Positions 11,735 to 43,000 of a stretch of DNA of 64,000 nucleotides are shown one piece after another (position 1 is the first letter of the stretch; every line of letters starts with the position of its first letter). A model generated the notes under the pieces. It was not told the DNA's origin. It was given only the letters and a program-made list of their open reading frames with translations, and did no database searches. Location of the stretch: positions 16,492,001 through 16,556,000 of the forward strand of contig OX485809.1 in the NCBI GenBank assembly GCA_950295325.1, written 5' to 3'. The position numbers and the translations under genes are program-made. Origin of the DNA: Polytrichum commune (Eukaryota > Streptophyta > Polytrichopsida > Polytrichales > Polytrichaceae).

Positions 11735-12031
11735 CACTACACTGAAACTATATATTTTGTGTTCGATACACTAAATATGAACACATACATTGTATGAAAG
11801 TGAGTAACATTAAATGTAAACTTAAACACTAAATATCAACTATGGTAATATGTGGAAGTTACATGTTTGAATTTAGTGTTAGTAAGGATATGATATCCAT
11901 GTTTCACGGGAAGGGAGGTGGCGGCACATTTATGTCTAATACGAATCGTCCAGGAATTGAAAATCAGTGTTGAGCATGGTAGAGTGGTAACAACATTAAA
12001 AATTCTCAAACATTGAACATTCTTTTTAGTG
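11735..12031. mobile_element. CACTA-like miniature element
   Basis: The 297-bp stretch begins CACTACACTGAAACTATAT and ends ...TAGTG. Inside it are several cactaaat/atttagtg motifs typical of CACTA subterminal repeats. Its last 78 bp (from 11954, gaattgaaaatcagtgttga) match 55121-55203, whose outer end reads tttcgtgtagtg, the mirror image of a CACTA terminus. No clear 3-bp target duplication was found, so the outer limits are tentative. Confidence 0.5.
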
Positions 12032-13650: not shown

Positions 13651-14092
13651 AATTCTAGTGTTTCCAAGTCCAACCAGTTACAGGTTGTGATCTTTGAGGT
13701 TCTCTTCATTAATTTGAGGTATATTCCATAGATCCTTCTAAAATTATCAATACTTTTCCTAAAGTCTACAACTTCAACCGGTTATTTCTCAAGCTCAACC
13801 AGTTCATCTGTAAGTAGTGGTCAGTTCTCTGATAACATTGATTCCAAAAAATATTGTGTGATAACTGGGTTCCACAATTATGTGTAGACTTGAGGAACTC
13901 ACATGTAATGAAAGGGGAGAACTGATTGCTAGTTACAGATGAACTGGTTCAGTTTGAGAAATAACCAGTTGAAGTTCAAGAAAATTACCGACCATTGTAG
14001 AGGAATCTATGGAATATACTTCAAACTAACAAAGAATGTTTGAAAGATCTCAACATGTAATTGGTTGGATTTTGGGAATATTGGAATCTCGA
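13651..14092. mobile_element. Foldback MITE with ~175-bp inverted arms
   Basis: The left arm (about 13651-13832) and the right arm (about 13916-14092) are reverse complements along nearly their full length, with scattered mismatches. Matching blocks include gtatattccatagat, ccggttatttctca against the complement of tgagaaataaccagtt, and gaaccagttcatctgtaa (complement) at the inner ends. About 85 bp of unrelated sequence separates the arms. Such long-armed non-coding elements usually derive from DNA transposons; the superfamily was not determined. Confidence 0.65.
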
Positions 14093-17000: not shown

Positions 17001-17396
17001 TTACTGCTTTGGAGATACCCATTATGGTGGGTTTATGACTTATAGATTAAGTTAGTTCTAGGCTTAGTTGAGCCTCTCCTTCAACCACTGCCACAATGAG
17101 ACCAATTGTTTATTTTTGGGTTTGTCAAAGTTAGGCACCACACTTTTTGTAGTGTAGTGAGAGTGCAAGCAATAATAAAGGACATGGACACAATTTTTTG
17201 AAACATAGTATTTTTTTCCGTTGTGACATGCTAATCTTATTTAAAGCAAAAATTGAGATCAAAATTTAAACTAAAAAAGTCCAAAATGGTGATAATTAAT
17301 GAGATATTTTCATATCAAAACCCTTTTTAGATATCCAAATAAATATCTAAATAGCACTGCAAGCACCATATACATACACACACACACACACACACA
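14093..17396. other. AT-rich spacer with a G12 run and a CA microsatellite
   Basis: No supported gene. A run of twelve G lies at 15483-15494 and a (CA)n run at about 17374-17398. Several short open frames occur but look random. Confidence 0.5.
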
Positions 17397-18040
17397 CAAT
17401 AATATCCCACTTAAGTATGCACTTTGAACTGGAGCCATTGGTGTGCACTTAGTTGGTAGGTGCGTATTTTACTCATATCGTTTTCTAGACCCTCTAATTC
17501 GATGAATTGCAATGGGAACCGGATGAAACCTGAGGCAACCCACTTGATTGAAGCCCAATGATGTGAAATCATTGCAAAGTGGAGAAGCCGAACGTGCCGA
17601 GCAAGCGGGTGCTGGGGCGGGAATAAGGAATTAGTGAAAGCGCCATCCGGAAAGTCTAGGACGATTGGGAGAACATATATATTGCAATGAAATCCAACCT
17701 GTTAAGGCATTTGCTAAATCTGAAAGTGTTACCGACTTTAAAGGCTTTGAAGCTCTACACAACATTGTCCTCGACATCAACGATCAATTGCTTTGCTCCA
17801 ATGTTCAAACGGAAGTTGGACAAGTGTATGATGAATTGTGACGATCGTTTGCGATGTTTCAGCGAAATGTTAACAAACTGACATTGAGTCAAAGGGTTAA
17901 AAATTGATGCATTCACGACAAATGACTCTGCATGACATGTTCAGACAATCAAACATGAACCCTGGTTTCTGTCAAAAAAAATTGCGCACTTAATTACGAT
18001 GCGTACTTAAACAAGTGCATACTTAAGCGGGAGATTATTG
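17397..18040. mobile_element. Non-autonomous DNA element with 28-bp terminal inverted repeats
   Basis: The left terminus 17397-17424 (caataatatcccacttaagt...) and the complement of the right terminus 18013-18040 match at 26 of 28 positions. The element is 644 bp long. A (CA)n run abuts the left end and hides any target duplication. The inside holds a 64-codon open frame at 17687-17881 with no recognised similarity. The superfamily is not assigned. Confidence 0.6.
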
Positions 18041-20212
18041 TGTATCGAACCTTTATGAATAGCTTTGTCCAAAGAAGTTTTATCTTTTATAGGGAGAAAC
18101 AATATTTTTTTAATATACTTTGAAATTATTGATAATCCTTTCATGTGTTTAAGGGTTAACTAGCCGTATAGATAGTACACATAGTTAGTCTCCACCCCAC
18201 AAATAAATGTATTGTACCCTCGTTTTGATATTCAATAAAGATGTTGAGGGTGGTAAATTATCTAATGGGTTGTATGATTGTAATTGGTGTTGCTTAACCA
18301 TGTGGACTTGGGCAATACATATTCACATGTTTGAGCTTCCCAAATAACGTTGTAGTTCATTTTCATGTGTAATTATGCCACAATTAGATATGATTGTTTT
18401 GCATGGTGGCATAAACTCTCCACAAATCTTATTTTGTAGTACTAGTGCAATAAATATATACTAGTAATGCCTCCAAAGTGCCAAATGATGAATAATACAT
18501 TGTTTTTAATGGAATTCAGTATCACTTACTATTTGGATCGAGTATTCTTTTATTTCAATTTTTTTTTACTTGAACATCTCAATCAATTTTAGACATGATA
18601 CATTCTAGAACATGAAAGACTTTACTTTGTGGAAACTCATATTATAAGGATGATTTTACAATATTGTGTTACTATGAGTAATGTATGTCACTAGATATGA
18701 AGGGTCCCAACTTGAGATCTTTGTGATTTGGAAGGGGTTTGTAGTGACATGGGAGATTTGAAACAAAGTAACTTGTATTTTGGTCATTCTAAACTTTGGA
18801 CGAGTTTGGAAATAATCAAGTAGTTTTAAACATGTAAACACTTGTGCCTTCAAGTCTTGTTGTTTGAACTTGCGATGTCGCCATTGTGTAGGTTATTGTC
18901 TATCAAAACACTATGAACATGATGTGCATACTAGACATTTGACATTATTACGAAGGTATTAAAGCATATTTGCAACAACAATTAAGTCCATAATTGGCCA
19001 AATATTGTGTAGTTATCTAAATATTAGATATGTATAATGATATGTGCAATCAAGTTACCCCACATTGATTTATCAACGCTCCACACTATTTGAATTTTAT
19101 TACTATGATAGTAAATACACAATCTGGTTATATATTGTGGTTTTTATATGGAGAATAAATATACAATTATGAGTTTTTCATGTTTTATTTTAAGCCAAGG
19201 TATTTTGCATGGGTAAAGAGGCAAACTGTCTATGAAAACAACCTACTTGCACATACTAGTGTAGTGGTATTAGGTTTTTTAAAACCTAAGTCCAAGATAA
19301 GATTTTAGCTTGAAGTATCAATGTGGGTCTGAAGTTAGCTTAGTTATTACTACTAGTGGACAAAATAAATATTTATGATCATAATTATGACAACAACCAC
19401 ATAAAACATATTTATTTCAATAACACTTCATTTTTTCTAGGAGATCAAACTATAATTTATAAAGATATAATGCTTAGAGAATGACTTACCTTTCTTATTA
19501 GTCCTTCCCTATGGTTGGCTGTAGCAAAGTTGAGTAAGTATAATTCTATGGCACCCTCCCCACCCCAACTAATCACCCAACATTGGACGCAAAATAATTT
19601 ACTTGTGCTAGTCCATTTTCTACTAGTACAAATCTAGACCCACACTCATAACATCAAAATTCCGATATAATGATATGCCTTCAATATTGATTTTTCATTT
19701 GGCTTGTATTATCAATTCATGAAAATAAATGTACCATGTTAATTAGAGTGATCATGACTTCCCATATAGCACCAAGTGTTATATGACATCCTCTCTAGTA
19801 GAGTGACCCTCTTGTTGTCAATGTTTGAAAGTCAAAGAATACAAGTTAACAATCTCCCCCCAATATCAACTACATATATGTAATCGAGTGTCAATCGGAT
19901 TACTTATCGTACATTGTGTGATTAAAGAGGTCATTGAAAAATCCCTGCCCATTTCTTCTATAATTGAAGGATTGCAATGTGGGTAAATGCTAATATTTAT
20001 TAGGTGGTCACAAACCCAAAAACAAATCTATATAAAACAACGGTGTTCACCAAACATTTGTCAACAATTGTGTGTAGTAATATGTTAAGCAATCCAAGTT
20101 TCTTTAAACATAATAATGTACATGTGCCTAATTCGGTTACTTTCCTTAATCATACATCCACATTTGAGTGGCGTGTGGTTTAGCATGATCCAAGAACGGA
20201 CACTTTGGACTA
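18041..20212. other. AT-rich gene-free spacer
   Basis: Very AT-rich with many short palindromes. No coding frame with family resemblance and no RNA gene was seen on either strand. Confidence 0.5.
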
Positions 20213-21299: not shown

Positions 21300-22217
21300 A
21301 TCCATCTTGCTTCACAGGGGCCAAAATATGCCTTGCACGTGAATATTCGAAGATGACAGGGCACAAAGGACCCTGGGAAATCCACATAGGATGTACGATA
21401 GTTTCAGTGTTTGCTTACGTGGACAGTCGGTAGTCGCCACGTAGGCAGAATGCGGATGAGACTCTAGAGCACTTCAAACCAACGCTGTTCCCTCTGACAG
21501 GACATCACTAATAAGGGATGCTCAATTGGGACCTCGCATGAGCCTTGAGACCTCAATATTGAACTTGCTATATCGAGGACGCTTCGCGAGAGGAGACCTG
21601 GTGTACCGGAAGACCAACTGAAGACCTCGATTGCGAAACCTTGGGACCTCAATGTTGGACTCGCTCTGTCGCGGACGTTTCTTTGTGTGCATGCGATTTC
21701 AACGCGGGCGGAAGGATCTACGACACAGGCAAGGCGCCCAGGATTTCGTGCGTAGTTTTCTTCAACGAATGGCATTCGAAATTTTCCTTGTAAATTTTCG
21801 ACAACAGCTTGAGTCCTGCGCTTTTGGTAAGCCAAGAATCGCCGTGCACCATTTCAGGTCCAGATAGGGTTTTAATTTCCCCTGTCGTTTGGTTTCAAGA
21901 AGATTGAAGAATTTGTTTAGTATAGTTGAGCATCGGGAGGAATGAATGGCATTGTCATTCCTTATTGTGGTTTTTTGTATACCACGGAGCATTCCTGTGT
22001 GTCATGTGCACTATTTGAGGATTTGCATCATGTAAGGTATTATAGGGTTTCGGATTCCACCTGTGTTGTGAGTGCCACACGTATTTTGGTAGCAGGTTTG
22101 ATAACTGGAATGGATTGGGGTTTATTGCAGGAGGAATTGGAGCTATGGAGATTGGTGCAGGATTGACCAAGTGAGGTTGGACACCAATTCCAGCAAGAGG
22201 GGAGGGCAGGGGGAACA
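21300..22217 (+). promoter_or_regulatory. Upstream region of the ABCA transporter gene
   Basis: This gene-free stretch ends at the transporter start codon. It holds ACGT-core motifs (gcacgtga near 21338, ttacgtgga near 21416, gccacgtagg near 21436) and a duplicated block of about 43 bp (21543-21585 and 21639-21681, each starting ccttgRgacctcaat). A purine-rich leader (gcaagaggggagggcagggg) lies directly before the start codon. The transcription start was not determined. Confidence 0.45.
21543..21681. repeat. Duplicated 43-bp block in the ABCA upstream region
   Basis: 21543-21585 and 21639-21681 differ at only about seven positions. Shared wording includes gacctcaat, gttgRact and cggacg or aggacg. 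It may be a small promoter duplication. Confidence 0.6.
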
Positions 22218-25200
22218 ATGGGTGCGCCATGGCACGTGCAATTGCTGGCGACGGTGCGTCGCAATTTAGTTATCAAGAGGCGGGATGCTTCTCAGACACT
22301 TCAGGAGATTCTGCTTCCGGTTCGTTTATAGTGCCCTCATATGTTGCATGATCAGTATTTTATTTTTGCAATTGGAATACATCGGGGTTGCGTAATCGGA
22401 ATGAATCCGGTCGTTTGGTTTTTGGGAAGAACAAGTGACAATCATCATTATCAGTTCTGATATAGCTGTATTTCAAGTTTCTACCAACATTCAACATTTG
22501 ATTGAACGCATCTCGTATGTTCTTTTTGAATACGATTCAGTCAACTTAGTCCGTGCAGAACCCTACATGGTGGGAATTTTGAAATGACAAAGAAGCGACT
22601 GGAAGTTTCTCAGTTTGAGCTATTGGGAAATAGAGCTGGTCAGGATAGAGCATGGGTTTAACGTTTTTATTCAAGATTGCTCTGTAAATTATTGATGGTT
22701 TGGAGTATATCAACTCACTAAGTTCCACTAATCCTTGCAACTCAACTTGTCATACAATTATGCTCGAGAGAGCTTAATTTGAGACACAAAACATTTATAT
22801 TTCGTTCCGGAGAGACTAATTTAAATTTCATGAAATCCGTGTTTCATATTTTGCAGGTTTATATCATCTTCCTACTGGTGCTTGTCAAGCTTGGCCAACC
22901 GTAAGCTGACATACTTAATGTTTGATGCTATTAAGGTTATAGGTTTGAGCAATTTCTTGTGGCTGCTGGAAGGCATAGATGGAATATGTCCATGCATTTG
23001 TGATATTGGAAAGAAGTCAAGGCTCACTTGTTTTTTTGGCATGGCTGAAAGCAACAAAGTAATTCTTGAACATTTGAAGCGAGACTAGGTTATTGTCTGA
23101 TATGCAAGTGCAGGGATTGCCTCAGTTAATAAAAAAACCTCGTCACAAGGTTAGATGACTTGGGCACCCGCTGTTGCACAGGGATAGGCAAGTTGCAAGT
23201 GTCTGCTTCTGGTTTATCATGAAATCATCTAACTAGGAAACACTCTGTTCTTCTTTTGTTGATGATGACTCAGACATAGGTATCTACCAGGCACTTCTTG
23301 GATGAATAAAGTGGATGCTAATTGCAAGCCAGTGGAGCAACCATTTGATAATGTGTGTTGGGCAGCTGCACACCGAGCACCCAATGAAACTCTGGTTAGT
23401 GCATGTTTGAGTCATCAATCTCCACTCTGATCCCCCTGCCACCGTCAGCTATACATCTCGTTGTAAGAATTATGTGGATGAGAATTTGCTGGTCTATTCA
23501 TGTCAGTTTGCAGTTTCTAAACAGATGAAAGGTTCTGCCTCTTTTTCCACCTAAGCGAGAACATGAATGTTGCTAAGGGGGAGTGTTCATCTAATTTACC
23601 TTGTTGAAATCTTGCAGCTTGCTTATGTTCCCCAAGGAAATAAAGCAGTGGGCAGCTTGATGCTGCAAGTTGCTCAAGAGTTTGGAGACTGGTAAGCCGC
23701 TTTTAAAACTTAACCTGACTAAGATACATTTGCATATATGTGTCATAGGACATTGACACGTAGTTGCACATATGGAATATTGGATGTGGCTGAGGTACAT
23801 AGGTTGTACAAAATCTCTCAAATGCCAGATGGGAGATCTGCATGGGAGATCATGTAATACAGAACTCATCTGGATCTGTGTATGAAAGAACTGAAAGTCT
23901 ACTAGCTGATGAACACAGTAGAAAATTCTTAGAGGCTCTCAAAAGACCTTGTGTCTAGATCTTTACCTGTTGTTTTGATCTGCAGCATAATTCCTTAATC
24001 AGGTTGTTTCAATAATACATCTGGCAGATGCCTCTTTGATTTTTGTGGTTGTTTGAATGCTTATTTCCAAAATATCTATCTATCTATTTATTTTTTCCTT
24101 GGTCCTTTGATATGTAAATAGCTATACAGTACTTGAAGAGAGAAAAATAACATCTGTTTCTAGTGCTGGCTTCACCACTCATTGAAATATGTAAGAGGTT
24201 TTGTAAAACAGCAAATTGAGCTAGAAACGTTGGTGGGTAGGTAGAAGGAAACTAACAAGGTAATCTCCATCATAGCACAAAAGTGGATGGCCATCCTCCA
24301 ACCCTCAACTTGGTAATTCACATACTTCCTTGTAGTACGTTGATTGAAGCCAAGAACATGTCCAGTTGAGATTAGGGCACTGAAAATTAATATGGGAAAT
24401 CTACCCGACCCCTTCTGTTAAGTCCAGTTAAAGATCTGAGAAAATGAACTCTAGATACCATTTTCATGGGACCAGAGAGGGGCTGTTAACTAATTGTATG
24501 ATCAGAGCACTAGTTAGTAAAAAAGAACAATGAATTTTTGTGGTGCATGTCGAAACTCATTGCCTAAGTTTTAGGTGATATGTGTGTTAAATTACTAGCT
24601 CATTTCGAAGCTCTGCAGGTATTCTACCTCAGCACCACAACTTTCACTTAAAGGATTTGACACCGAAAAGGATCTTGTTGTTTTCTACAACACACAACCA
24701 GAGGTAAGCCCTTTTGTTTGGTGTCTCTTTTTGACTGCATTACAAATTTACAATGTAATAGTAATAATGTTCAGATGGAGAAATAGTAGTCTGTTAATGT
24801 TTTTGGTCATGAAATTACTTCTGATGGCAATATTATGTGGAGCTTATATATTATTCAGAACTTAAAATTGTCCCATGAACCTATGGTTGCTAGGAGTGGC
24901 AATTTTTTTCGTACTCTGGATAGCATGTGTTTGTGCATTTGAGGCCTCATGCTTAGTGCTGTGAAGCATCTGATTTTGGTCAAGTCTGTTGAATCAGCGA
25001 TCTCTCTAAGTTTCCCAAGCCTCTACATTATATCTGTATTCAGGTGTTGTATGCTGGTGTTATTTTTGATGGAGCTGATGGTATGGATCACCTCCCTGCA
25101 GACCTGCGGTTTCGAATTCGTATAAATGGTAAATACACTGTTATACCGCCCCTTTGAATGGACTGGGACCACAATGCTTTGGCTGTGGTTCCAGAAGAGC

Positions 25201-28200
25201 ATCTTAATTTGTATAGCTCTCCAGAGGGTTTGTACAAGGCTGAACACTTTGTTGTGATAATGAAAATCAGTGAGGGAATTGAGCTGAGTGAAATTTTAAA
25301 TAAACATCAGGCACCATCAGCTTTGAATGTTTGTTTAATTGATTTAACGAATTTTGAACATTAAGGTGGGTTGCTGTGGGACCTTTTTACAGCCTGTGCT
25401 TTTTGTCCAGGATTCCCAACTTTTCATATTCAAGTAGTTCTCAGAGCAAGACCAGGGTTAGTTGCTGTATGAAGTTCATGCTGAGGACAAGTGAAACATT
25501 AGAGAGTCCACATCACAATTATAGGAAGACAATGCAGATTGTTAATATGAATTGACCTCGTACTTTGTGTAGGCACGTACGTACCATCAACTGCCAAGTT
25601 ACAAGGAGACAAGGACACTTGCCATGATGGAACAAAGAGCTGTCTTTCAGACAACTACTTGAGCTCAGGTGTGAGCTTGACAAGCCTCACCAGGTTACTT
25701 ATGTGAGACATGTGTTGCATGTGCTCTGCATTCATTTCCAAGTTATATTAAGGACTATGGAATGCTAGGCTCTAAGAATAGGAGGGAGGTTTTGAGGTTT
25801 TTTCCAGAGCAAGCTGTTTGCTGACTTTGATAGAAATTTTGTGGTCGGTTCATGCATCCATTACGATCTTCTTGAATCTGGTTTAGGTGAACCATCAAAG
25901 TTGGTTTGGGGGAAGGTCTTTATACGTCATTTGTATTTTTGTATCCAGGATTTCTGGCACTTCAAACCACCATCTCTCAAGTTGCGACAGCCATAGCAAT
26001 GCCCTCTCAATGTGGTATATCAAAGCAAATAAAATCCACATTTGTGCAAAAACAGCCTGTGATGGAAGTGAACCAGTCCTTTGCATCCACGATCTTCCAG
26101 TTGTTTACTGCTATGTACATGGTGTGGGCCTTTGCCCCCCAGTTTCAGACAACGCTGTTTCATATTGTTGAGGAGAAAGAATCCATGATTAAGGTACTGT
26201 TCAATCTATCATGTGATATGGACACTTGTTCAGGAGCTTTGAATATTTTCAGGACAAATGTGGCAATGGGCACATCTGTATGAGAAGCGGAACCAACATT
26301 TGATGAACTTGACTTGCACTGTACATCAGATTAGGCTCTGTGGCGATGCCACATAAAGTTGTATATGGCAGAAATGGTACTTACTATTAGAGTAGTTAGG
26401 AATAGATGGACAGTATGGACGAAGGCATATATTCTCCTTGAACATGAGCCAACTTACAAATGTGGCTTGTGTTCCAGGATTGCATGATGGTGATGGGGCT
26501 CCGTGAATCAATCTATTGGTTGTGCTGGCTGATTACATATGCCCTAATGTCTCTCATCACAGTCTTTGTTGTGGTAAGAAACTATTCCTTGCTACTGTAT
26601 ATGAAAGTATCGTAAACATTTGTATGGAGGTCCATTCTGCTGCATCAGACATGAGGTCACGTTGTCTTCCTGGAAAATCTTCTCCCCACCTCCAGACTGT
26701 CACATTGTAACCGTGCTTCTGTTTTGCAGGTTTGGGCAGCCAATTACACAACTTTATTTGAATTCTCAAGCATAGGAGTTGTATTTGTGCTTTTGTATTC
26801 ATATTCGTTATCCCTCATCACTATGGCATTCTCCCTCAGTATAATGTTTACAAAGGTGAGTGGACCCAGATGTGGCATTTATCCCTACTCCTTTATGGTC
26901 GGTTTCTTGAACATGCACTTACATGGATGTACCACAATGTTTTGCAACCAGTTCAGTGTACCTTAGCTAGCCTGGTTTTAGTTTGCTTTGCATTCCTCTT
27001 TATTTATGGATGCTTTATCTGTTGTTCAAGGATATCACCCTTTATTCCATCCAACTTCCCGAATGAGACATGTCTTCCTTTGCATATCATTAGTGATACT
27101 TTGTTGTTGTTTTTGATATCTCTCGACTGTTGTTTGAGCTTGTTTGGTTGTGAGATCTATGTAACCAAGGCTATAGGGAACTGATGGTCGTTGTTTAGGA
27201 GAGGACTGTTAGCCACCAATAGATCTAAACTGGAGAATTTGTCATAATTTACATTATGGTCATGTTACATCTGTGCTGTGTAGGCTCGAACAGCAACTAT
27301 TGTCTCTGGATTGCTCATGATATTCAGTAGCCTGGCTGTCATCCCGGTTGAGCTTCTTCAGTGGTCTAGCCCAGTTTGTGGATTGCTAGCTCTATTTTCC
27401 CCCTCTGGCTTTGCCATGGCTATTAATGTTGTTGTTCGAGCTGAAGGAAGAGGCCGAGGAGTGCACTTCCGTGACTTCTGGTCCAGGGTTGTTCCATCTA
27501 CCTTTCTATAGTTTGTCTTTGTTTGGTCTTATGGTAGATAATGCTGGGTTGGTGTGCTAGTTTAGCATGTTAGTTTAGCTTATTTGTGCTCACCTCTAAC
27601 AGCATTGGAACCAGAAATGCCTGCCTACTTAAAGAACCCAGTCATGTTCTTGTCAGAGATATTTCAGTGAAACTGTAAAATTGATTTTTATAAGACTTCA
27701 AAATGACTCTTTGTTTCTGCATGTTGTGTGTGTCATGTGTTGGTCCTAGACTGGCAAGACAAATTGTTCCTACTAACATTTGGATCAAATTAATAAGTTA
27801 TCAAAGAGCTTGGGTTCAGCTCTTGTACTAGGTCAAGATTGATGCAAACCAAATAAAATTTGGGAGTAAATCAATGGCCTTTAACACTAGAGATTGGACA
27901 AAGTCTCTTCTTGATTTAGATGGATTCAAAAATGTGTAGGGATCTGGTTGCAGTACTTTATATTTTCTCCAATTTTTCATAGATATATTCAGTGCAGCTT
28001 AGTATGCTATTACTGTCCAGTGAATTTTGTTTGTTGCATGGTGTGTGTAGTCGGCAGGTTTGGACTTCAGTGACCGTGAAAATCCCTTGAGTCTTGGAGC
28101 TCTAGTCTTTATCATTCTTACTGACGCTATTTTCTATGCAGTCACTGCATGGTAATACACGTTCTCCTTGCCTGAACCCTTCAAACTTGCACATATTATT

Positions 28201-31200
28201 GGCCTCAATGGTTAGGGATATCCAAGTTTTCTGCAAGTGTAGAACCAAAGATATTTGATGTGCTTGGCGAAATACTATCTGGGAGTATACGCTGTTCTCC
28301 CATACATTATGATAGGTGATGAAGGATGTTTTTGTGTTCCAGACCCTGAGGAAAGTACTTGTAGGATGTTCTAGGAATTCAAATTTCCCTGGTTGTTTAC
28401 ACATAAGCAGTTTCAGAAACCTGTGCATGTATCAGGCAGCGCTCGCTGCACAGGAATGTATATATATATGTAACAGGCCACAAAAGTGTCGTGGATACAT
28501 TCCACTGACTGTAATGAAGCAGTGGTGTCTGGTGTTGAAAGATGAAAGATGCCAGAAAACTATTGGTTTGATTCTGTGCTGGGTTGGCCAGGTACCTAGA
28601 TAACACGTGGCCACATCCAGAGAGAGGCCCTAAGCGGCCTTGGGGATTCTGCTTTTCGTCTAAGTACTGGTTTCCATCAACAGCAAGAAATGATTACACT
28701 CTCACGAAGGATAGAGAAGTCTGATTCTACACAACCTGCGCTACTAATGACTTTTTTGCTGTTGGCTTTGCACGATGTTGATAAATATGACGCACTATCC
28801 TTGAAATTTAGAAGGCCTTGCATTTGTCAACTAGTTTTCAGAAGGAACATATTAAATACTGTTTGAGTCATTTTAGGGTCTGGATGCCCTCAATTGTTTG
28901 GTATGTTGAATGGTTTTGCAACTCTTGTGTCTTGCCCCGGCCTGGTAAGTGATGTAGGTAGTCTAGCCTTGCTGTATATTTTATGTCGTCCACTTGGATG
29001 TGTGTAGTTATTGTTATCCTCTTTAACTTGTCATAGCAAGCGTTGCAGGCATATTTTTCCTCTTTTCCCATTCAGTGGTTGGTTTTTACAGCTCGATGTT
29101 TTGGGTACAGGTCAAAGGTTATGTCTCACAGCAGCAACTGGACGATGCTAGTCTTGAGATGGATACAATGCCTGATACAGCTTTAGAAGGTACTATTCTC
29201 ATTGTTCGTCTTTGAGAATGTCAACTCAAGTACCTTGGTCTCGAGAAGACTCTTTAGGAAATCTAAAATGCTCCTGTTTTTGTCACTACATCCAAGGTCC
29301 TAATTGGCTGACAGTAACTGACCTAGTTTCTTTTGGGATTCTTCAGTTGAAACAAGTGATGTGGTGGAAGAGTGCAACAACCCTGACATAGAATCTGCAA
29401 ATAGTGATCTTCAGACCAGGCCAGGTGTTGTTTTGAAAAATCTCAGGAAAGTGAGGTCAGGGAAACAGAGTTGGTGGCAAAGTCTTTGGGGAGGAGCGAG
29501 GGGCGTTTCCAGTTTAAGGGTGGATGCTGACTCAGACATAGAGGTGGTCAAGGGACTCAGTCTCACTCTTTATGAAGGACAATGTTTTGCTATTGTTGTA
29601 AGTTACTTATCCAATTCCTCTATGTGTTTGTACTGCGATGATTTGTGTATAAAGTGTGGTGTCACCAGTACCTATCAGCAACAGTACCTATCAGCTATTA
29701 GGTAGCCTGCAGGTTCATTAAATGGGGAGAGCAGAAAATGGAAGATTTGCATAGAACACAACTTCAAGTTTGAACGAATTTGTAGAGATTTATAATTAGA
29801 TTCGCCTATCATAATAAGTACCCACTCAATCTAGCAAGATTTGAAGGCAAAAAAAGTGAATACATTCTTCTCAGCAGCCCGGCACACAAGAAGAAAAATG
29901 GAATAAAGTAACTGAGGAGAGTATGATGCATTGATACACCATGACCTCCAAAATTGTTTGACGCATGATTTCACAAATCTCACAGCAGCACCAAGTGCGT
30001 CTAATGGATTCAGTGGAGTTTGTTAATTGTACACTCAGTGACTGTGTCCAGATTGTGTAGTATGCTGCTATCAAGTATTGGGTGTATGAATTCTGCATCG
30101 TGCAGAGGAAACCTTAAATCACCTTACATATAAGCATGTAACAGAAGTTGTTGTACTTGTAGTAGTTGCATGACAGTTGAATCTTCATTGATCTGCAGGG
30201 CCACAGTGGATCAGGAAAATCTGCCGTCTTGAATATGCTTTCTGGGATCTCACGTGCAACATCGGGTGAAGCATACATATATGGTCTTCCTGTCACTGAT
30301 GCTGGTGAGCTCCACTTAAATTCTTTCTGCAGTGTGATGTTTGCGCATGCATGGGCAGATTATCACATGCTGTAGTGCACACACGTTTTTCAATAGTCCT
30401 GGTTATCTTAGAAGAGGCCTTTGCCAGGACATGGTTGTTGCCTTACTTGATAAAGGCATCGTCATAGTTTCTCTTTCTTCATGAAGGATGAGCAAGAGCC
30501 ACACCTTGTATTGTTATATCTTGTGAAGTTGGGTTATTTGTCAAGCAATGCTGCTTTTCAGATTTGTATAGTGGTATCAGTCTATCTGGAAGTATTTCTT
30601 TTGCTTTCACTTAATATTTAATATTTTTTACGTGTTTCCAATCCTTGTTGCAGGGGAGGAGTTGTGTTCGCTAATTGGTGTTTGTCCCCAACAGGATACT
30701 GGGGTCAGTTTGTTGACTGTTCGTGAACAGGTCAGTTAGACCCTTAAATTGATGACTAGTTCAATGACATGAACTGCAATTATCAAGGGCAGGTGTGAGA
30801 GGGCAGAAAGCAGCGTATCTGTAGTTGGACGTCACTTCTCACTCAAAATGGCAATAAGAAGTGAACTGCTCTACAAACACTGATTGACTCAATTTTGGGC
30901 TATCTTGCTCCAACCTTTTTACTTGGAGTACTGAAGGTACTTCTGTTTGTTTGCTGCAGCTTGAATATTTTGCTACAATCAAAGGTCAATGCGTGCACCT
31001 TGGCAAAGATGGACTTGAGAAGAGCCAGCAGCCAAGGCCATCTGTGGAACAGATGACAGAGGACTTGATTGCTGAGATGCAGCTTGTAGATGATGCTGAT
31101 AAGCAAATAGAAGCATTGACTCATTCTGCAAAACGCAAAGTCAGCCTAGCAATTGCTCTTATTGGAGATCCTCAGGTATGACTTTCTGTCAGAATTACTT

Positions 31201-34200
31201 TGGTGGATCAAGCAATATCTTCACTGGATAAACTATATGATGATATAGGATTGTGCAGCAGGCTAAACTCATGAAACCTATCTCCTTATTCTATTTCCTA
31301 GAAGATTCTTTTGGTAACTTGAGACGGATAGCAACTTTGAAAGCATAGAATTCATAGAACTTTCATAGAATTTAATAAAGGTTTTGAAAGCAATCTATGG
31401 CAGCACGGCTGCCAGAAGGAGATTTTGTAAATCCTAGAACTGTGATCTGGTGATTTTTGATGAACTATAGGAACTATCATTGAGAAATGCTGCACAATCT
31501 GGTTCAGTGTGGAAGAAGAACTAAGAATGATAATGGAGAGTATGGTCTGTGAATGGAGGTACTTTCAAGAACTAAAATGTGGGGTGAAGATTCGACCTAG
31601 GTACCTTATCTTTCAACAGTGTCTGTTCAGACTTAGCACAAGGAATGCCCTTGAAATTCCACTCTACCTGTGTACATTAGGTGTCTTGATGCTCATCAAT
31701 ATGGAAATGGCAGGTTGTGATATTGGATCAGCCCACCAACTCTCTGGATCTGGTTTCGAAGAAACAATTCTGGGATATGCTACACAGACACCAACAAGGG
31801 CGTGTGATCTTATTTTCAACTGACTCCATGGACGAGGCTGACACTGTTGCTGACCGGAAGGCTGTTATATCACATGGTGCATTGAAATGCTGTGGCAGCT
31901 CATTGTTCTTACGGAACCGCTTTGGTAACTCCTCAGTCTCTTATTTTGCTCCTGGATGATCAAGTTCTGGATTAATATAAAGTACTTGACCAAGGTAGTT
32001 TGGCATCATTGCGATATTACCCAGAGGCATGCATTTGTAATTGATTCCTATCTTGGATTTGCAGGACTAAGCTATCTGCTGCATGTGACAAAGGGAGAAA
32101 GGTTCAATGCTACAGCTGTGTGGGATTTGGTTCAAACCCATGTGCCTAGTGCTGTGCTACTTCCAGCTCCAAGGGGTCAAGGCCATGTCACCTTCAAGCT
32201 TCCTCTGGGAGTTCCGGCACAGACAAGTGCCCTCCTTATGGCTTTGACGGAGTAAGTTAAATGCATGTTTAAGGTTAATTTGAACTTACAAATCTGGTTG
32301 CAATACTTTCCAGCCTTTATTGAGAGCCTCCTTGCCTTTATTGAGAGGAAGCTATTGGGGGTGAGTGTAAGTGGCTTGTATTTGTCCTTCTGTCTGTCAA
32401 TTCTCAGAGCTCATAATCTGTTAAATCTAGAAATAAATCAGTTTCTAGTTGCCCATTTGAGTAATGATGGTTTTGTCATTTCGCATTGAGATTGATCATT
32501 AGTTATAGAGTTTGTGTCCCTACTTGCTGTCAATCTACAGTTATAGAGTAAGGTGTGCTCTTTTTGTGCAACTATATCTCATTAGGTGATTTGTGGTAAA
32601 GCTTCTGTTAACAAGAAAATGGGACACCAATGGGAATTCGTCTATAATCTTTCAATTGTAGAACTATCTAGAGGAATGGAGCATTGAAGTGGTCACTACA
32701 AATGCAGGCATGCAACTGAGCTGGGGTTGGATGAAGGAGCATTAGAAGCCACAACCCTTGAAGAAGTCTTCATGCAATTTCAAGGTCACTATCCGTGTTG
32801 CATAATGCATCATGCTCTTAAACTTGATCCCTCTAGTTTGATATTCTGCCCTGATATTCCTCTAGCTTGTTTTTTCTACTATATATAAAACTGAGGATGG
32901 GGAATCAGTTTGGCAATGTCATTATCAAGTGACAAACATATAAATGAGATTTGAAGAATAAGTTATCTTTTATCTAAAGGGTTCAATCTTTTTATGCAGA
33001 TTTTTTCTAGGAAGTCATGGATTTGGCTTTGCACTTTTCACAGGATTATTATGACTTGTGCTTCATGCAAACTGTTTAACAGCAATCTGGTGGGAAAATT
33101 CTAATAAATACTTGTGAAGATATTGTGTTTATGTGATTGACTGGTTATCTCCATCAATTGCAGATGAGGATGAAGCTGCAGCTGGTCTCATGTCTGTGCG
33201 GGATGTCTATGACTGGAATACTTACACAAATACTCCAGATGAACCTGAAGATGAAGCACTCCTCATTGGAGGTGAACGATCAGCTGATGTAGATTCCATT
33301 AAGAGGCGTCGATCTTCCTTGGCAGTCCAAATTTCAGCTATCACGCGGACACGCCTAACTTTGTATAGGTATGTTTCATTAACATCACCATACAAATCTT
33401 TTGATACATTGCATTGGAGATTGAGAATTGACACAACCATAACTGCTTCGTCAAAATATCTCAAAATCTAACAGTGCTGGCATACAGCTACTTAGAAAAA
33501 TGCTGTTCTTGCTGCCACTGTTCATTGAAATTGTCTTGTGAGGAAAGAATATTCTACACTTGGAGACATTTCAGTGTGCAATTATTGGATCGACCTAGTT
33601 TGGAGTCTCCTCAACGCAGAGAAAGGTATTAAGCGGAAGTTCAATAATAATAATGGTTGCAAATGCAATTGTGTAACCAGAAAACATTAATATGCACAAT
33701 TTTTTTTGTTTTTTTTTTGTTTTTTTCTGTATTTTCTGTACATATGAAGTGAGCACAAAGGATCACATAAATGGAGCTTCTAAAACTTGGAGGTGGCTGG
33801 TCTGGTTACAGGCGTAATCTTGGCTCAATATTGACCACCTTTATGATACCTTTGGTATGTCTACTGAACATTTACTGCTTGTTTATTTCATTGTAAATCA
33901 AAATCTCAGAGGGAAAGACCTAACTTGTGCTCTTAAATTGTCCCAAGTTTGTTGAGTGCTTCAGGAAATGCACTATCCTTACAATATATTAGGACTATTG
34001 TCCAGCATGTAGTGTTTGATATCTGGTGAAGAATTTTCGTTATTTTTATGGCCTAGCAATGTTCTAGGTTAATATGATCATATCCTTACAGGAAGATCAT
34101 TCCTACAGTAGGTTCTGAAAATACCCTCAATCTCCCAGTATTTCAGATGAGCCTCACAGTCTGAAACAATTTGGTACAAAATTAGTGCTGAACCTTTTTT

Positions 34201-37200
34201 CCTGTGCAGGTATTAGCTCTAGCAGTTCTGATAGCCCAATTATTTATTGGCAAAACCCCTCCAGGAGCCCTTCCACTTCAAGATTCAAGATTTGGGAAGA
34301 CAGTACCCATCTTTTATACTGTGTCAGACACTAATGTCGAATCTCAAGTGCTCTCTTTCCTGAAAGCGTTTGGAGATAATCATGTTCTTGTATATCCACG
34401 AGACTCGGAAAATTATACTGCAGCTGACCTCACTGACATGCCTAACAATGATGAAACCACCCACATTGTGGGGATATCTTTTGATAAGGTTGACTTTGAA
34501 AGTAAGTCCCTATTATTAAGATTTGAACTAGATTTTGTTTCTCACATAGTCCTATTCCTCTGCCATGCAAGTTACCCTTGTTATCATCAAGGCTGAGAGA
34601 GATATTTTGTTTTTATGTTAATCTAGACCTGTTGGGGGATGATGAGCTCAGTGGGTCTTGGTGAGAACTGGGCATTGTATTCATGATGAGTAAGGGCCAG
34701 TTGATGTTGTAAGGCATGATAGGATGATTGTGCAATGATATGACACATACAAGAGGTGATTTTGCAGTCTTAATATGTGGATGGTCCTTGTTGTAATTTA
34801 ATATTTGCAGACTCTGTTGAAAATGTGCACTATTGCTATCTAGTTGTCCAATGACTTACTTTACACCCATGCATGCACAGATTGTACGCTGCAATATACT
34901 GTTGCATGTCACCCCTTACAAACCCACGAGGTACCCACTGTTGCAGCTATGGTAGACAATTTATTCCTGAATTTTCTTGAAAGCGGCTACTCTGGAAACC
35001 AGTCAATACCTTCATCTCTTCATGTCAGCAGCCACCCTTTGCCATATGAGTACAACGATTTTGGCTTTGCTTATGGGGTCGTTACTGTCATAGTCATGAG
35101 CCTGATGTTGATCCCCCCGATACTGACTGCACAGGTACATTTTATCTCTAGCATGAATTCTTCTTTGAGACATTCAGTAGAAATTCTGAAGTTCAGGGTT
35201 ATTAATCATGTCTGGTCAATTGTTTTGGTGTAGCTTTTGCAAATCTGTGTAAATATGGCATTGTTCACCTTTCAACTATTTGAGTGCAACTCCAGATCTT
35301 TAACCAGGAGTTTTTTTTTTCAACCATACTCTACTAGAGAAATTCTGTTCTGTATTGTCCCAATATGCATGAGCTTGGAACATGAATACATACGGAGAAG
35401 AGATGACAAATGATGGAGCTCGAGGATCACAGCAACAGGATGAAGATCTTGACCCATCATTTACCACTGATGGCAGTCTACTGGTTTTTGCAGCATCCAA
35501 AATTTATTGTGTTGTGTGTGGGAGCAGGTGGTGCTTGATAAACAGTTTGGCATTTTGGGTTTGTTTCGTACAAGTGGGATGAGAGGTGTAGCTTATTGGC
35601 TGGCCACACTTTTCTCTGATCTGCTGCTTTATGAGACCACTGCATTCCTTATACTGGGAAGCGGCTTGGCATTTGGACACCCACCTTTCATTAAGGTTTG
35701 AACTCCTACAGGTCCTTAGTTCTGGGTTATGGCTCATTGAGCAGCGTTGTGAGGTTCTTTAGACCAACATTATTGGTGCATATGCTCTATAGAGAGGTTC
35801 AAAGTAAGTTGGTTGCATAAGGGCAAAGGGCGTTATAGAAGGCCTTCTTAGTTCACTAGTAGTTGAGGAGGAACTTGACTGTTGTACCATGTCCTAACCT
35901 GTTTTAAGCCCTGTCCTTACATCTTACGCTTAGAGAACAAGCTAGGAATTTGGGTAGACCCCAAATTTTTAAGGACTTGTCGTATCCTGATAAGACTAAT
36001 TGTAACCGACTTTTTGTTTGCCACCATCCAGGAAGCAGCCCCTGCAATATTGGTGTTATTACTTGTCACAATTCCAGCAACAGTTCTCCTCGGCTATAAT
36101 CTCAGCTTCTTCTTTAAAAATGCCCAACTGTATGACCTTGAAACCCTTGAACAAGTTTGCCTGTCTCCAGCCTGCAGAGATTCTATTAGTGCAAATTGAC
36201 ATTCCTCCTCTAGTGCTTACCAGTATCTGTATTGGCATACCTGGAACCTTTGTACATGAAAGTGGTTAATATGTGCTAATACGAATCTGGTGTGATCTCT
36301 TGTGCAGTGCGGCTTCCCTCCTTTCTTTATTCTTTCTTCTCTTAGCATTAGTACCCTACCTCATCATTGTAACTCCCCAAGGTATGTGTAGTTGCAACTG
36401 TGAAGCAATTGATCTCGCTATGGCGTGGATTTGATCTTACCTGAAGTTCACTAATGACATTCATGCTGTATGAAACTTAGATTCCACTTAACATAGACTT
36501 TCACTGGCAGTTTACATTGTGATGATGGTGTAAAGTTTGTGCATGGAACTAATCATGGCATTTTCTTAGTAACTCGTAAGTTTCAGATGACACTAATGTG
36601 GAGAAGAGTGAATTTAGCATGTGGTAAGTAAAATGTATTCTGAACATTTGCTAAATACATCCTCAATTGCACTCCTGTGATTGCAGGTAATTTGGTTTAC
36701 AGAAGCTGGCATTATCTCCTTACCCTTATCGATCCTCCATATGCCCTCATATCAGGACTCTACTTTATAGTAGCCACGATTGATAAAGTGACATCCATGA
36801 ATGGCGCAGCTCCATCAGAAATGCCAACACCATTGTACTTTTTTCACTGGGACAACCATGTGATCTTGAGTATAATATGTTCAGCAGCTGCCTCTGTTAT
36901 TTTCTTGATATGTCTGTGGCAACTTGAGACGCATGTGCTGGACCCTGAGAAAAAACCCTCTGGTAACGGCACAGCAGTTCAACCCAATCGTCAGGAAGGT
37001 GTAGATGGCAGCAGTGACGTTGAAAAAGAGAAAGATAGAGTACAGTCAAATGCAGCTAGATGGGAAGGCATGGGCCTTGTAGGTGGTGGTGATGGACCTG
37101 AAGGGGATTTGATTCTCTGCTGCAGCCTTGGAAAGGTAGTGGTTTCCATTCTCTTATTGTTCAGTTGCTAGCAGCTATTTATCACTTGCAATTTCTTAGG

Positions 37201-40008
37201 AAATCTGACTTTACACACTTTTGCAGAGCTATGGTTCATCTGAGGTGATTCGAGATCTGTGGCTTGCTGTGGGGCATGGAGAGGTATCATCCTGATCATT
37301 AGTGAAATGACACCATTCTTTGAGGATCTTAGTTGATGTGTTCAACAGGTAGTGCATTAATAGCCTATTCTAGCAGGAAACCTTCTGCAAAATGTACAAT
37401 AGAAGGGAATTATTTTATTCTAAAAAAAACATTTCTCAATGGAAATTTTTGGCTTGCAATCAGGTTGTTGTCTTGGTTGGTGGGCACAAATCTGGAAAAA
37501 GTACATTGCTACACTGTCTTGCGGGAACAGAACCTCTCAGCTTTGGAGATGCGATTATGTGTGGAGAAAGCGTGCGATATAGCCATCTTCTTAATAGACG
37601 ACGAATCGGTTTCTGCCCGCAGTATGAGGTACTTGCAACCTGGTTGATTCTCTACGCCTTTTGGCTTATGTAATCTCATCAAGTGTATTGAATGAAAAGT
37701 TACATCATAGATTCCTTCACATGGAATATGGTGACTTGTGTTTGAGCATTTACAATTCAAATGCTCTGCAGGCCCTGTATATGTCCATGACAGTGAGGGA
37801 GCATCTTCAACTATACACTGCCTTGAAAGGTGTACCTGAGCCTCGAAGCTTGGCTGTTGAGACTGCTTTGCAAGCACTTAATCTCTCTGGTATTAAGAAT
37901 CCCTTCACTTATATGGAATTACTTTATAGTAACTTGCAAACTCATTCACCAACTTGTACCTTTTCTCATCCAATGTGATACCTGGAAGTGAAGGCAAAGG
38001 GCAAGCTACCAGATCTAAATTTGAGTTTCTGAATTGCCAATGGAAATTCCAGTTGCTGGGCTATTTTGATATTATTGTGTCACTGAATTTGATATCAGCC
38101 CCTAAATGCAAGAGGCCGTACTTTCATACTCTAAGGGTGGCCTCTGATCCTGACCAGTTTCTTCTTCAGTTCAAACGGTGTGAAACCTGTTGGAGATCTT
38201 CCTGTGGTAACTCAAATAGCACAATCATGATCAAGAATATTGTTCCCAACAACAACTCCCAATCCAACCAGACTTGGAACATTCTTGCCTATTGTAATGT
38301 TCTAAGAAATGACCTGTATGGGAAAACCTTTCATGTCCTCATGCAAAAACATGCTGATTGAAATTGGTGTAGGTTTTGGTGCCCATGGACATTTATAACT
38401 CCATTGACCAGAACATGGTTGAAACATAGAATTTAGGGGTCCAGGCTTTAGGGGTCTGAAACATAGAATTTAGGAGTCCAGGCTTTAGGGGTCTGAAACA
38501 TAGAATTTTTTAGGATGGAAATGCTCATGTTTTTGTATATTGCATGACTACTGCTAATATTGACCACAACAATTGATACTGAACAACTCTGGGTTGATGC
38601 AGATGCAGCAGATATGAAAATCAAGCACTGTAAGGCTGGCACAAGGCGCATGTTAAGTCTTGCTCTTGCAATGTTAGGAGGTCCTTCTGTTTTACTTCTT
38701 GACGAACCTTCCTATGGTTAGTTTGTTCTTCCCTACGAGCTACACTTCCCTAAATTGCATAATCCTGGATTATCTCAACTTTACAGGATAGAAGGTTGAT
38801 TTGGTAGATCAAATCATTATTAGAAGAGAAGTTTATGCATTCTCATTAGATTAGCTGGGTTTAACCCATGTACAAGGTTACTGTACTTCTGTTATCAAGC
38901 AAGATTTGACAAGTGTCTCCATGAATGCTGTCTTGAATATAACTTACGCCATGGTCAAGCACTGAAAGAACATGAGGTTCTGCTTGATTTGATATGTTCA
39001 CATATGATTTGCAGGAATGGACTTTGCAAGCAGACAGAAAGCATGGAAGCACATATCGGCCCAAGCTGCTCAATGTGCAGTGTTGATCTGTACCCAATCA
39101 TTTCAAGAAGCTTCAGTCCTTGGGTAAGCTGTCTACACAAGAGTGTTGAATTGATATTTGTTTGTCAAGCTTTCAAAGCATAACCATCAAATTTCCACAT
39201 AACCTGCACAAGTGTAGATGATTAGTCTTTTCATTATAAGATGGAGTATATATACAGGTCTGGACTTGGTGTCCTTCTGGCATGTAATTATCTTTGTAAC
39301 GTAAAATTATTACCCCACCCAAAACAAGCATCCTATAATCTTGCACAATAAGTAAATATGATGAGAATTTCCACCACCTTAACATAAGGGTCCCATCTTT
39401 GGTTTGGGTCATCTATCTACCAATAGAGCTTTAAACCCTTGAAACTTTTGCATATGGAGGGCACACTTTGGTACATTGGAATCCCCTGTCAACTGCTAAT
39501 GAGGACTTTTAGAAAAAAATTAAAAATAGAAATAGTATCTGATAACTCAGCACTTAAAAGTGAATGTTTTAGCACCATCTACCTTACTGATGGTCTGTAC
39601 TGATGTGGGTCTCTGTGCAAATCTGACTGCAGAACAAGAGTGGGCATCATGGTTGATGGTCAACTCAAATGCTTAGCTCCACCGCAAGAACTGAAATTGC
39701 GCTACGGATCTAATTACAGTCTCTTGATATTAGCCGATCCAGACAGAATGCCAGAGATCTGCAGCTTCATTAATAGCCTTTTCCCCAGTGGTTCACAAAA
39801 TGAGGACATTGCCCCTGCTAGGGAGGAAGGGGTTGGACTCACTGGGCAAACAACATTTCAGGTACCTGTTAGGAGTCTTGTACAGCTTGCAAGGTTGTTG
39901 CATGAGCTGGAGGCAAAACGTGAGATTCTGGGGATAAAGGACTACATTGTCAGCCAGCCCACCCTGCAACAAGTCTTCCACCGGCTTAGTCAGTCAAATT
40001 TCTCTTGA
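22218..40008 (+). CDS. Full-size ABCA-type ABC transporter with degenerate nucleotide-binding motifs
   Basis: A 35-exon model sums to 5274 nt (1757 residues plus stop) with every join in phase; ABCA proteins are typically 1600-2300 residues. ABCA members usually move lipids across membranes. The order is N-terminal TMD1 (starts MGAPWHVQLLATVRRN; membrane segments in exons 25901-26193 to 28051-28151), NBD1, TMD2 (33812-36987), NBD2. NBD1: Walker A GHSGSGKSA (627-635), Q-loop CPQQD, signature replaced by LTHS (740-743), Walker B ILDQPT with Gln765 for the catalytic Glu, and Asp796 at the H-loop (STDSMDEAD). NBD2: Walker A GGHKSGKST (1470-1478), CPQYE, signature CKAG (1568-1571), intact LLLDEP (Glu1593), and Gln1624 at the H-loop (CTQSF). 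The family-typical TTLEEVF and PTLQQVF follow the NBDs. The acceptor of exon 8 is uncertain by 15 nt (25901 or 25916), and the donor at 28718 is weak. ATP binding may persist, but normal hydrolysis looks unlikely. Confidence 0.9.
29347..32784 (+). other. NBD1 exons of the ABCA transporter
   Basis: NBD1 is spread over exons 29347-29597, 30199-30304, 30654-30730, 30960-31175, 31714-31924, 32065-32251 and 32708-32784. Walker A opens exon 30199. Codons for the altered signature lie in exon 30960-31175, and both the Glu-to-Gln and the His-to-Asp changes lie in exon 31714-31924. The domain ends with EATTLEEVFMQFQ, the usual ABCA closing motif. Confidence 0.85.
37464..40008 (+). other. NBD2 exons of the ABCA transporter
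   Basis: Exons 37464-37628, 37772-37889, 38603-38716, 39015-39123 and 39633-40008 hold NBD2. Walker A is GGHKSGKST. The signature position reads CKAGTRR where ABCA proteins normally have YSGGNKR. Walker B with DEP is kept, and the H-loop His is Gln. The stop is TGA 40006-40008. Confidence 0.85.
38421..38509. repeat. 37-bp tandem repeat in an ABCA intron
   Basis: Two full units (38421-38457, 38458-38494), each starting gaaacatagaatttagg and ending ctttaggggtct, plus a partial third. It lies in the intron before exon 38603. Confidence 0.8.
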
Positions 40009-43000
40009 AGTTGATACAATGTAATTATCTTTTTTTCATGTCTTGAGGAAGTTTTGTCTGGATCGAAGCACAGGAAACAGTCACTTTATTATAGTCTAGG
40101 TTCAAATCTGACAATTCAAGCTTGACTTTCCTGTGGAATGAGGACGTCTTTTCTGAGATTCTGGATCACCAGGATAGTAGATGTTCCATGTTGGAACATT
40201 AAGTCTGTAAACAGAACATTGCAGCATCTCAGCAGCAGCGTCTTTTTAACTAATATTGTGTATACTCAGTAATATGGCTTCTCATTGGATTGTCCTTAGC
40301 TCTGTAAACTTGCAAAAAGGTATCAACTTATACAAAGGCAAGATGGAGCTGATCGGATATAGTGAACAACTATGTTTAGATAGCTTTTTGAAGATGTGGA
40401 ATTGTCATAGCCCAGCTCCTCTCGCTTGTTTGTGGGAACTGCTGCCACAGTTCCTTTTATCAATATCTTTTGAGAAAATAGCAACACAAAACACTTGCAG
40501 TCTGCATGTCATTGTGTCCACTTCTTTGACCATTACTATCTCCCTTTGTCTACAAACTGGTCGTAGACTTAAATGTAACTAGGTGTCTTCATTATTGAGA
40601 TTTTATATTGTATATAACTATTTATTCCTACATCATTCTCTTCTCTTTGACCCTTGTCCTTGCTTGAGTGCATGTGTTCAATCTCCTAATGACAAACTTG
40701 TGGTGAAGCTCAGTCTCTTACTTACCACTTCCTTTCGATCTTTGTAGTCTGTATACTCAAACCTACTGTCCTATCTGGTCACCCGAATTTTTTTACTGAA
40801 ATCACTAAGGATATTTCTCCAGATCTCTCATATTCTAGTAGCAAACTAATTGCACGTGATGATTGTGGAATACTTAAGTTGCAGAAAAACGCTGTTGTGA
40901 AGCTGGAATTGTAACAATCCTTCCACACCAACCAAGCCTCAGTGGCACCCGCTGATGGTAACTTGCTCTTATCGTACAAGATTCAATGCATTGCGATATG
41001 GTGCCTGCGAACTGCACTGTGTATTTCTCCTTTTGTCATCTCTTTCAGCACAAATTTACCGCAATTTAATACAATACAAGGCTAGTTCTTTCAATATGAC
41101 TACTCTTGATCTTCATTGGACTCCTTACCCTTCAGTTTCGCATGGACCTGCCTGCTCAAAAATCCCAACTCAATCTCTTTGTTGATCCTTTTTGTCTGGC
41201 ACGATTAACTGGCTTGACTTTCCAATTGAGTGACTATACGCTACCACTCTCCGTTTGAAAGTTGACTTCCAGCTGGTGGCCTTGGAAGGACATGGTGTGA
41301 AGAGTGGGTGTCAAGGCTAAGTTTCCAAGGCTACCATTAGGCATAGACTATACACATCATGCATATTTAGCACATGATGAACCAGGCTATGATGATGCAG
41401 GAGAAAGTTGGAATGAATCTACATCGCAGAAAAGTAGAGGTCTGGCCTGGTGGGTATCTCTTAATGCTCCACCGCACTTTAGCACTTGCCCACACGCCTT
41501 CTCGAGTTCCTGCGAGTGCACTTGTAAAGTTGAGAAAGCCCAAGTGAGGATGGTATACCTGACATGAGGTGATGTGGACACCATTTATAAAGTACATCTA
41601 AGGTAGATGTGTCTAAATCCAACATAGCAATAACCTGGATACCTATATTTGAATGGTATATAGGTGTGGATCTGAAACGGACATCTAAAAGACACGTAAC
41701 TAACAGAGATTGGCGAATGTGTTCAAAATACTAACCATTCTAGGCTCAATAATCAACATGATGGGGTCTACATGACCACTTAATGAGCATGGGAATATTC
41801 ACTTTGATAATGAATAAGATATTCATATGAGCTCCTAAAATTATAAGGCAAATGGTTATGGACACAATCTGGATTTGCTAATCATCTCCTAACACTAATT
41901 GTGTGTTTCATATCCTCTGGAAGTGGGTGCAGAGAGAAAAGTATCCAAATAACACACGCCTTCCTGAGTCTACTGAATGAAGTTCAAGCTCAAAGTCTAC
42001 TCTGAGTAAATTTTCCATTTACTCATCACCTTTCATTAGAGACCAAAATTCAAATGCATGCAGGACTGGCGAGGAGAATCTGTTGCAGTAAACGAAGCCA
42101 GTGACGATTTCTGAAATTTGAGTTTCTTTTTGTAAGTTACCCGCCCCGATGCAAATTTTGGTTTGCATGATATTGTATTCTCAACCTCAACGACCTCGAT
42201 CTATATGTAGACAAAGTGGTTCCATGTAACTTCACATCAAGTATGAACCCCAGATTACCATTATTTTTACCGTGACTCTATTTCAGATTTCCACTGCACG
42301 TAATATGAATTTTCCTGGATCAGCTTGACGACACAAGAAAACAAAGCACGAATAGATTTCTTATGGCAAGATTAACCTGGAATAGATTTTGAATGAAGTT
42401 CAATGCACAAAATATCTCGACTACTATCAGATTCAAGTTAAAGATTTTCTAAACGTGTTCCTTTACACAGTTCTTCCCTACGCCTTGTCAAGCAATTCCA
42501 GCTCTGGCTGAGACTCACTTGCAAAAGCCTTTGTCCTCTTTCACATTTCAACTAAAGTCAATGAAGATTCTATGTTAAAAGTGACTCAGTTTTCTGTTAC
42601 AATTAAATTCGGTTCGCAGTTTTTACCATGTGCGAATTTAGGCTCTACCAATCCTCCTACTAAATGCCGGGAGGTAGGCACATTCATTCATACGTCGCCC
42701 GATACCCACTGCCATCGTGCATTCTACACAACAGGTACATCTGGCGAGACCTGCATGTACCCCTGTTGTAGATCTGGGTCCCACCCACCGGCATGGATGT
42801 ACTTTTTGAGCTTCCGTTCCACATACGCCTTCTCCTCTTCTTCTTGGAGAGTTCTTTTGGGTTCTCTCAAAACCAGGAGGAACGGGAGCATCAGGAGCTT
42901 AGAACAATCAATTTTCTATCTTGGTCAATTTCAATTTGGCAAGAGCTACTGATTACATCCTGTGGTGTTTGTGTTTCTGCTCTTCGTCGGTGTATTGCGA

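Follow-up and report, generated by a model that had tools for sequence, protein, structure and literature searches.

A 64,000-nucleotide stretch of the Polytrichum commune genome (contig OX485809.1, positions 16,492,001 to 16,556,000 of the forward strand; hereafter the window, with coordinates counted from its first letter) contains a predicted full-length gene of the ABCA type. The gene occupies 22218..40008 on the plus strand, from an ATG at 22218 to a stop codon ending at 40008, and is modelled with 35 exons encoding 1,741 residues in the order transmembrane domain (TMD), nucleotide-binding domain (NBD), TMD, NBD. It is a real gene for a full-length ABCA protein, and its ATPase motifs are noncanonical at both composite ATP sites. 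From residue 196 on, the domain layout and the fate of each motif can be read off plainly; the domains lie as follows.

25949..28718, plus strand: exons 8-13, first TMD (TMD1; residues 196-485, aligned to ABCA3 226-515)
29347..32784, plus strand: exons 15-21, NBD1 and the segment following it (gene model and ABCA3 alignment)
33812..37135, plus strand: exons 23-29, second TMD (gene model, Pfam and ABCA3 alignment)
37227..40008, plus strand: exons 30-35, NBD2 and the C-terminal region (gene model and Pfam)

Pfam recognizes two copies each of ABC_tran (E-value 1.5e-43) and ABC2_membrane_3 (E-value 1.8e-38), and human ABCA3 is colinear with gene residues 196-485 and 588-1733. The TMD-NBD unit is thus present twice in one chain that is colinear with a known ABCA protein, as in full-length ABCA. 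The full-length human lipid transporters ABCA3, ABCA1 and ABCA7 have this same domain order, with colinearity shown for ABCA3. For TIGR01257, the rim ABC transporter model of NCBIfam, the match has an E-value of 6e-112 and 375 bits, its curated cut-off of 4013 lying far above, and the C-terminal PF23321 (R1_ABCA1) matches weakly (20.1 bits against a cut-off of 27). NBD1 is 39% identical to NBD1 of human ABCA3 and ABCA1, and of the 56 columns invariant across four human NBDs, 38 and 39 are kept in the two NBDs of the gene. A Tyr aligns at the A-loop position of NBD2, and the PDB alignments for NBD1 begin past the A-loop aromatic residue. NBD1 also has about 14 additional residues past the LEYFATIKG segment (30960-31175) relative to four human ABCA NBDs. 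The region for the large extracellular loop between TM1 and TM2 is present in the model, in exons 1-7, which have splice and codon scores and no homology support; residues 486-587 likewise have no support from the ABCA3 alignment.

The gene model was rebuilt by dynamic programming from scores for splice sites and codons, four stretches of TMD1 having been fixed beforehand as manual anchors, and this independent splice model reproduced the in-phase 35-exon frame at 22218-40008 that the first-pass annotation had described, with an exon count that depends on the penalty. Of the three exon penalties tried with the anchors, two give 35 exons and 1,741 residues and the third gives 34 exons and 1,709 residues; exons 11-13 are recovered with the anchors. 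Unanchored runs gave 50, 39, 34, 28 and 23 exons according to the penalty, which was chosen by hand, and with relaxed splice thresholds the unanchored model has 34 exons, 1,705 residues and a score of 234. Five control stretches of about 17.8 kb (the minus strand of the gene region and both strands of both flanks) scored from -0.1 to 95 against this 234, a comparison that flatters the gene score because the gene region itself served to train the codon model. The top control score, 95, belongs to the plus strand of the flank stretch 2000-19800. Since the program itself requires GT/GC-AG intron ends and an open frame, neither counts as independent evidence. Six splice sites score below zero, namely the donors of exons 11, 13 and 27 and the acceptors of exons 3, 12 and 25.

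The motifs of the two NBDs are listed here with the residues that they retain or have changed.

30199..30222, plus strand: NBD1 Walker A, GHSGSGKS, residues 611-618, fitting GxxGxGK[ST]
30686..30697, plus strand: NBD1 Q-loop, PQQD, residues 657-660, Gln kept
31116..31133, plus strand: NBD1 signature, LTHSA(K), with LTHSA at residues 724-728; LSGGM in NBD1 of human ABCA1 and ABCA3; part of composite site 2
31723..31737, plus strand: NBD1 Walker B, LDQPT, residues 747-751, catalytic Glu replaced by Gln749 (codon CAG)
31738..31749, plus strand: NBD1 D-loop, NSLD, residues 752-755, Asp kept
31816..31830, plus strand: NBD1 H-loop, STDSM, residues 778-782, His replaced by Asp780 (codon GAC)
37479..37502, plus strand: NBD2 Walker A, GGHKSGKS, residues 1454-1461, Lys and GKS kept
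37617..37628, plus strand: NBD2 Q-loop, PQYE, residues 1500-1503, Gln kept
38629..38643, plus strand: NBD2 signature, CKAGT, residues 1552-1556; YSGGN in human NBD2; part of composite site 1
38698..38712, plus strand: NBD2 Walker B, LDEPS, residues 1575-1579, catalytic Glu1577 kept
39089..39103, plus strand: NBD2 H-loop, CTQSF, residues 1606-1610, His replaced by Gln1608 (codon CAA)

In composite site 1, built from the Walker motifs of NBD1 and the signature of NBD2, Gln749 stands in place of Glu, Asp780 in place of His and CKAGT in place of YSGGN. Composite site 2, built from the Walker motifs of NBD2 and the signature of NBD1, keeps Glu1577 and has Gln1608 for His and LTHSA for LSGGM, a Ser-Gly-Gly to Thr-His-Ser change by which both glycines are gone. 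Both NBDs retain the Walker A Lys, the Q-loop Gln and the Asp residues of Walker B and the D-loop; the D-loop of NBD2 reads YGMD (residues 1580-1583). Eight of 24 motif residues (12 per NBD, a set picked by us) are changed, or 9 of 26 when the fourth Walker A position is added. These motifs bear out the first-pass annotation, which had described both composite sites as altered: its changes in NBD1 (LTHS signature, Walker B Gln and H-loop Asp) and NBD2 (CKAG signature and H-loop Gln, with Glu kept) are all present inside exons with homology on both sides, and the Walker A Lys and Q-loop Gln are retained in both NBDs as it had stated. Its residues 765, 796, 1593 and 1624 equal the present numbering plus 16, the two models differing by 16 residues before Gln749. 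Absent from that annotation was the NBD2 Walker A, in which His-Lys replaces the Asn-Gly of the four human NBDs; the motif fits the general P-loop pattern GxxxxGK[ST] and departs from GxxGxGK[ST]. The modelled intron preceding the NBD2 signature exon carries a 37-bp unit in 2.4 copies with 98% match (38420-38508).

Restoration of the motifs by alternative splicing was considered and rejected. No LSGG-like peptide occurs in six frames of 22001-40300, and therefore alternative splicing cannot restore the signature; a motif split by an intron would escape such a search, but the affected motifs lie within exons. The only canonical Walker B in this interval is that of NBD2. The H-loop pattern occurs on the plus strand at 34302 and 35027, in the second TMD region and thousands of bases from the H-loop exons, and three further times on the minus strand.

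These changes are not all equally unusual. PMC7756269 reports deviations of the Glu and the H-loop for several ABCA members and a degenerate site 1 as a common trait of asymmetric ABC proteins, and because of this account the degeneracy of site 1 in the moss gene can be called common in kind. The Glu replacements named there are Asp, Met and Ser, and Gln is not among them. In asymmetric ABC proteins (the ABCC family including CFTR, ABCB2/B3, ABCB11 and some ABCA), the NBD2 signature is altered in all, as in the moss gene, and some of them also lack the NBD1 Glu and H-loop His, again as in the moss gene (PMC7756269). In the full-length human proteins of this kind the degenerate site is always site 1, whereas in the moss gene site 2 is altered too. 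The moss protein thus shares their degenerate site 1 (NBD2 signature, NBD1 Glu and His) but not their canonical site 2 (LTHSA, Gln1608 and GGHKSGKS, with Glu1577 kept). Among the eukaryotic ABCA proteins sampled in PMC3378599, the signature of the C-terminal NBD is reported to be almost always degenerate and that of the N-terminal NBD invariably canonical; a figure legend there has 'almost entirely', for the Walker and signature motifs together. LTHSA and Gln749 in NBD1 depart from this regularity, and the NBD1 signature is not the canonical one, although this is a reported regularity and not a definition. It is through the NBD1 signature that site 2 is the unusual part of the protein.

Wild-type-like NBDs of ABCA1, ABCA3 and ABCA7, the proteins covered by the motif comparison (ABCA4 was matched too), have an SGG signature, Glu and His in both NBDs, unlike the moss gene. 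The Gln form of human ABCA3 (PDB 7w02, compared with 7w01), which we take to be an engineered mutant, has LDQPT as its NBD1 Walker B, as in the moss gene; it carries Gln in both NBDs with the other motifs canonical, whereas the moss gene keeps the NBD2 Glu and has changed signatures and H-loops. The plant full-size ABCA1 (AOH type) is, by its description, a full-size ABCA like the moss gene product. The motifs of Arabidopsis ABCA1 are presumably canonical. A search by titles and abstract openings found no report of degeneracy at both sites in a plant ABCA protein, and one may still exist. PMC9164057 places full-size ABCA in Mesostigma, Klebsormidium, Selaginella and Arabidopsis and not in rice or early land plants, and PMC10513242 reports that ABCA is absent from Physcomitrium, Selaginella, a hornwort and Chlamydomonas, so that the two conflict on Selaginella. 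Ferns are reported to have fewer ABCA members (PMC4886425).

Relatives were looked for among 55 loci of viral contigs (best segments 23-57% identical) and 7 loci of prokaryote genomes, all bacterial or archaeal, and no plant relative was recognized among them from the match tables and motif alignments. Translated self-comparison at an E-value of 1e-4 found no tandem ABCA copy in the window, although a diverged copy could escape it, and NBD1 and NBD2 of the gene gave no mutual match at this threshold. The 62 prokaryotic and viral-contig loci yielded 28 distinct alignments, a set biased by the retrieval of many loci with patterns on the same motifs (Gln and Asp permitted). In this set the Glu and the D-loop Asp are present in 28 of 28 and the Walker A Lys in all 16 alignments covering it, and the H-loop His in 14 of 17 covering, the rest having Asp (two) or Ser (one). 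Of the 21 alignments that cover the signature, 19 keep the Ser, 13 the first Gly and 20 the second. At the Q-loop only 5 of 16 show Gln, which points to poor alignment of that column. Therefore, loss of the H-loop His or of the first signature Gly is not rare in this biased set, and loss of the Glu is unseen.

Whether such changes could have accumulated by neutral decay was approached by simulating neutral substitution on the present codons, with 60 replicates at each of six rates and no insertions or deletions. At 0.15 substitutions per site, at least 8 changes among the 24 motif residues have a probability of 0.44, but the stops expected then number about 26 in the 1,741 codons and 7 in the 440 NBD codons, against none observed; the probability of zero stops at about this rate is about 4e-12 for the whole frame and 9e-4 for the NBD codons. 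At 0.02 per site, the probability of no stop is about 0.36 in the NBD codons and 0.02 in the whole frame, and that of at least 8 motif changes is about 5e-6. When the probabilities of at least 8 motif changes and of no NBD stop are multiplied, none of the six rates gives more than about 5e-4, and therefore constraint was most likely acting on the rest of the gene when the motif changes became fixed. The homology-bound NBD exons contain no stop or frameshift. In this model neutral accumulation of the motif changes appears unlikely, and neutral decay is a poor explanation of the motif changes and the open frame together; very recent loss of function after motif fixation is possible. The open frame had been taken earlier as an argument against recent pseudogenisation, and it is one against old neutral decay, though not against very recent loss.

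The reading favoured here, which could about equally well prove right or wrong, is that a full-length ABCA protein is kept as a protein while its ATPase is crippled; the gene is most likely maintained as a protein. ATP would be bound firmly at the NBD1 Walker A and probably, with less assurance, at the NBD2 Walker A. At site 1, with Glu changed to Gln, His to Asp and the NBD2 signature altered, ATP would be held and not split, and non-hydrolysis there is well grounded by analogy. At site 2, hydrolysis would be absent or very slow, Glu1577 notwithstanding, because the NBD1 signature is without both glycines; non-hydrolysis of this site is likely and rests mainly on LTHSA, the odd NBD2 Walker A adding further doubt. 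The description of the protein as non-hydrolysing in the first-pass annotation accordingly holds by analogy for site 1 and is less firm for site 2, where Glu1577, the Walker A Lys, the Q-loop and the D-loop are kept. The protein might then act mainly through ATP-dependent closure of its NBDs, perhaps handling lipids slowly or in one direction only, or sensing nucleotide as the partner of another membrane protein, rather than working as a fast pump.

Several points weigh against this reading. First, MRP1 is reported to have retained wild-type-like transport when its NBD2 H-loop His was changed to Gln or Asn (PMC7756269), and Glu1577 is kept, so that residual hydrolysis at site 2 is possible. 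Second, the unusual NBD2 Walker A makes ATP binding there uncertain. Third, no orthologue was found among the loci searched, and selection on the gene is therefore something that we infer. Fourth, the simulated substitutions take the present codons as their starting point and make no distinction between one codon and another, and outside the homology-bound exons the gene model itself partly ensures that no stop occurs. Finally, a regulatory role, or any role past ATP binding, is a guess. A bolder reading, that of a maintained ABCA pseudo-ATPase whose full-length lipid-transporter chassis has been turned into a regulator gated by ATP or into a slow scaffold for lipids, as SUR proteins reuse the ABCC chassis, is tentative and rather improbable.

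Also improbable is an active asymmetric transporter in which site 1 is degenerate in the common way and site 2 hydrolyses with Glu1577, Gln1608 and LTHSA. The tolerance of MRP1 for Gln and the NBD2 residues kept (Glu1577, Walker A Lys, Q-loop and D-loop) speak for it, but it has to accommodate Thr-His-Ser in an NBD1 signature that PMC3378599 describes as 'invariably' canonical across its sample of eukaryotic ABCA proteins, and an NBD2 Walker A that is also altered. Less probable again is a gene that lost catalysis earlier and in which pseudogene decay has now started or only just started: at 0.02 per site the NBD codons would often be free of stops, but the motif changes themselves would hardly arise at this rate, which places their origin earlier, with the rest under constraint, and the homology-bound NBD exons are intact. 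An artefact of the gene model or assembly is very improbable, despite the unsupported exons 1-7, the six poor splice sites and the penalty-dependent exon number. The codons for the signatures, Walker B motifs and H-loops are internal to exons and have homology to either side of them, the canonical residue is replaced at eight separate codons, and no LSGG-like peptide exists in any frame of 22001-40300.

Elsewhere in the window, a tandem array of a ~224-bp unit (about 4 copies, 76% match) lies at 62143-63065, and a direct duplication of ~500 bp, with blocks 79-91% identical at spacings of 479-522, at 52856-53858. Imperfect inverted repeats at 13666-14072, with arms of 65 and 98 nucleotides at 86% and 76%, may be a small foldback element, and a plus-strand series of open reading frames (ORFs) at 3427-7411 may be what is left of a transposon; five of these ORFs were run against Pfam, with no match above cut-off. 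Ten flank ORFs gave no Pfam match above cut-off and two weak matches below it, and the 64,000 nucleotides contain no tRNA and no Rfam match.

If the favoured reading is true, a maintained ABCA protein altered at both sites would mean that a function other than the ATP-driven pumping of lipids can preserve the ABCA fold, and the moss protein would be a natural counterpart of the Glu-to-Gln forms employed in ABC transporter studies.
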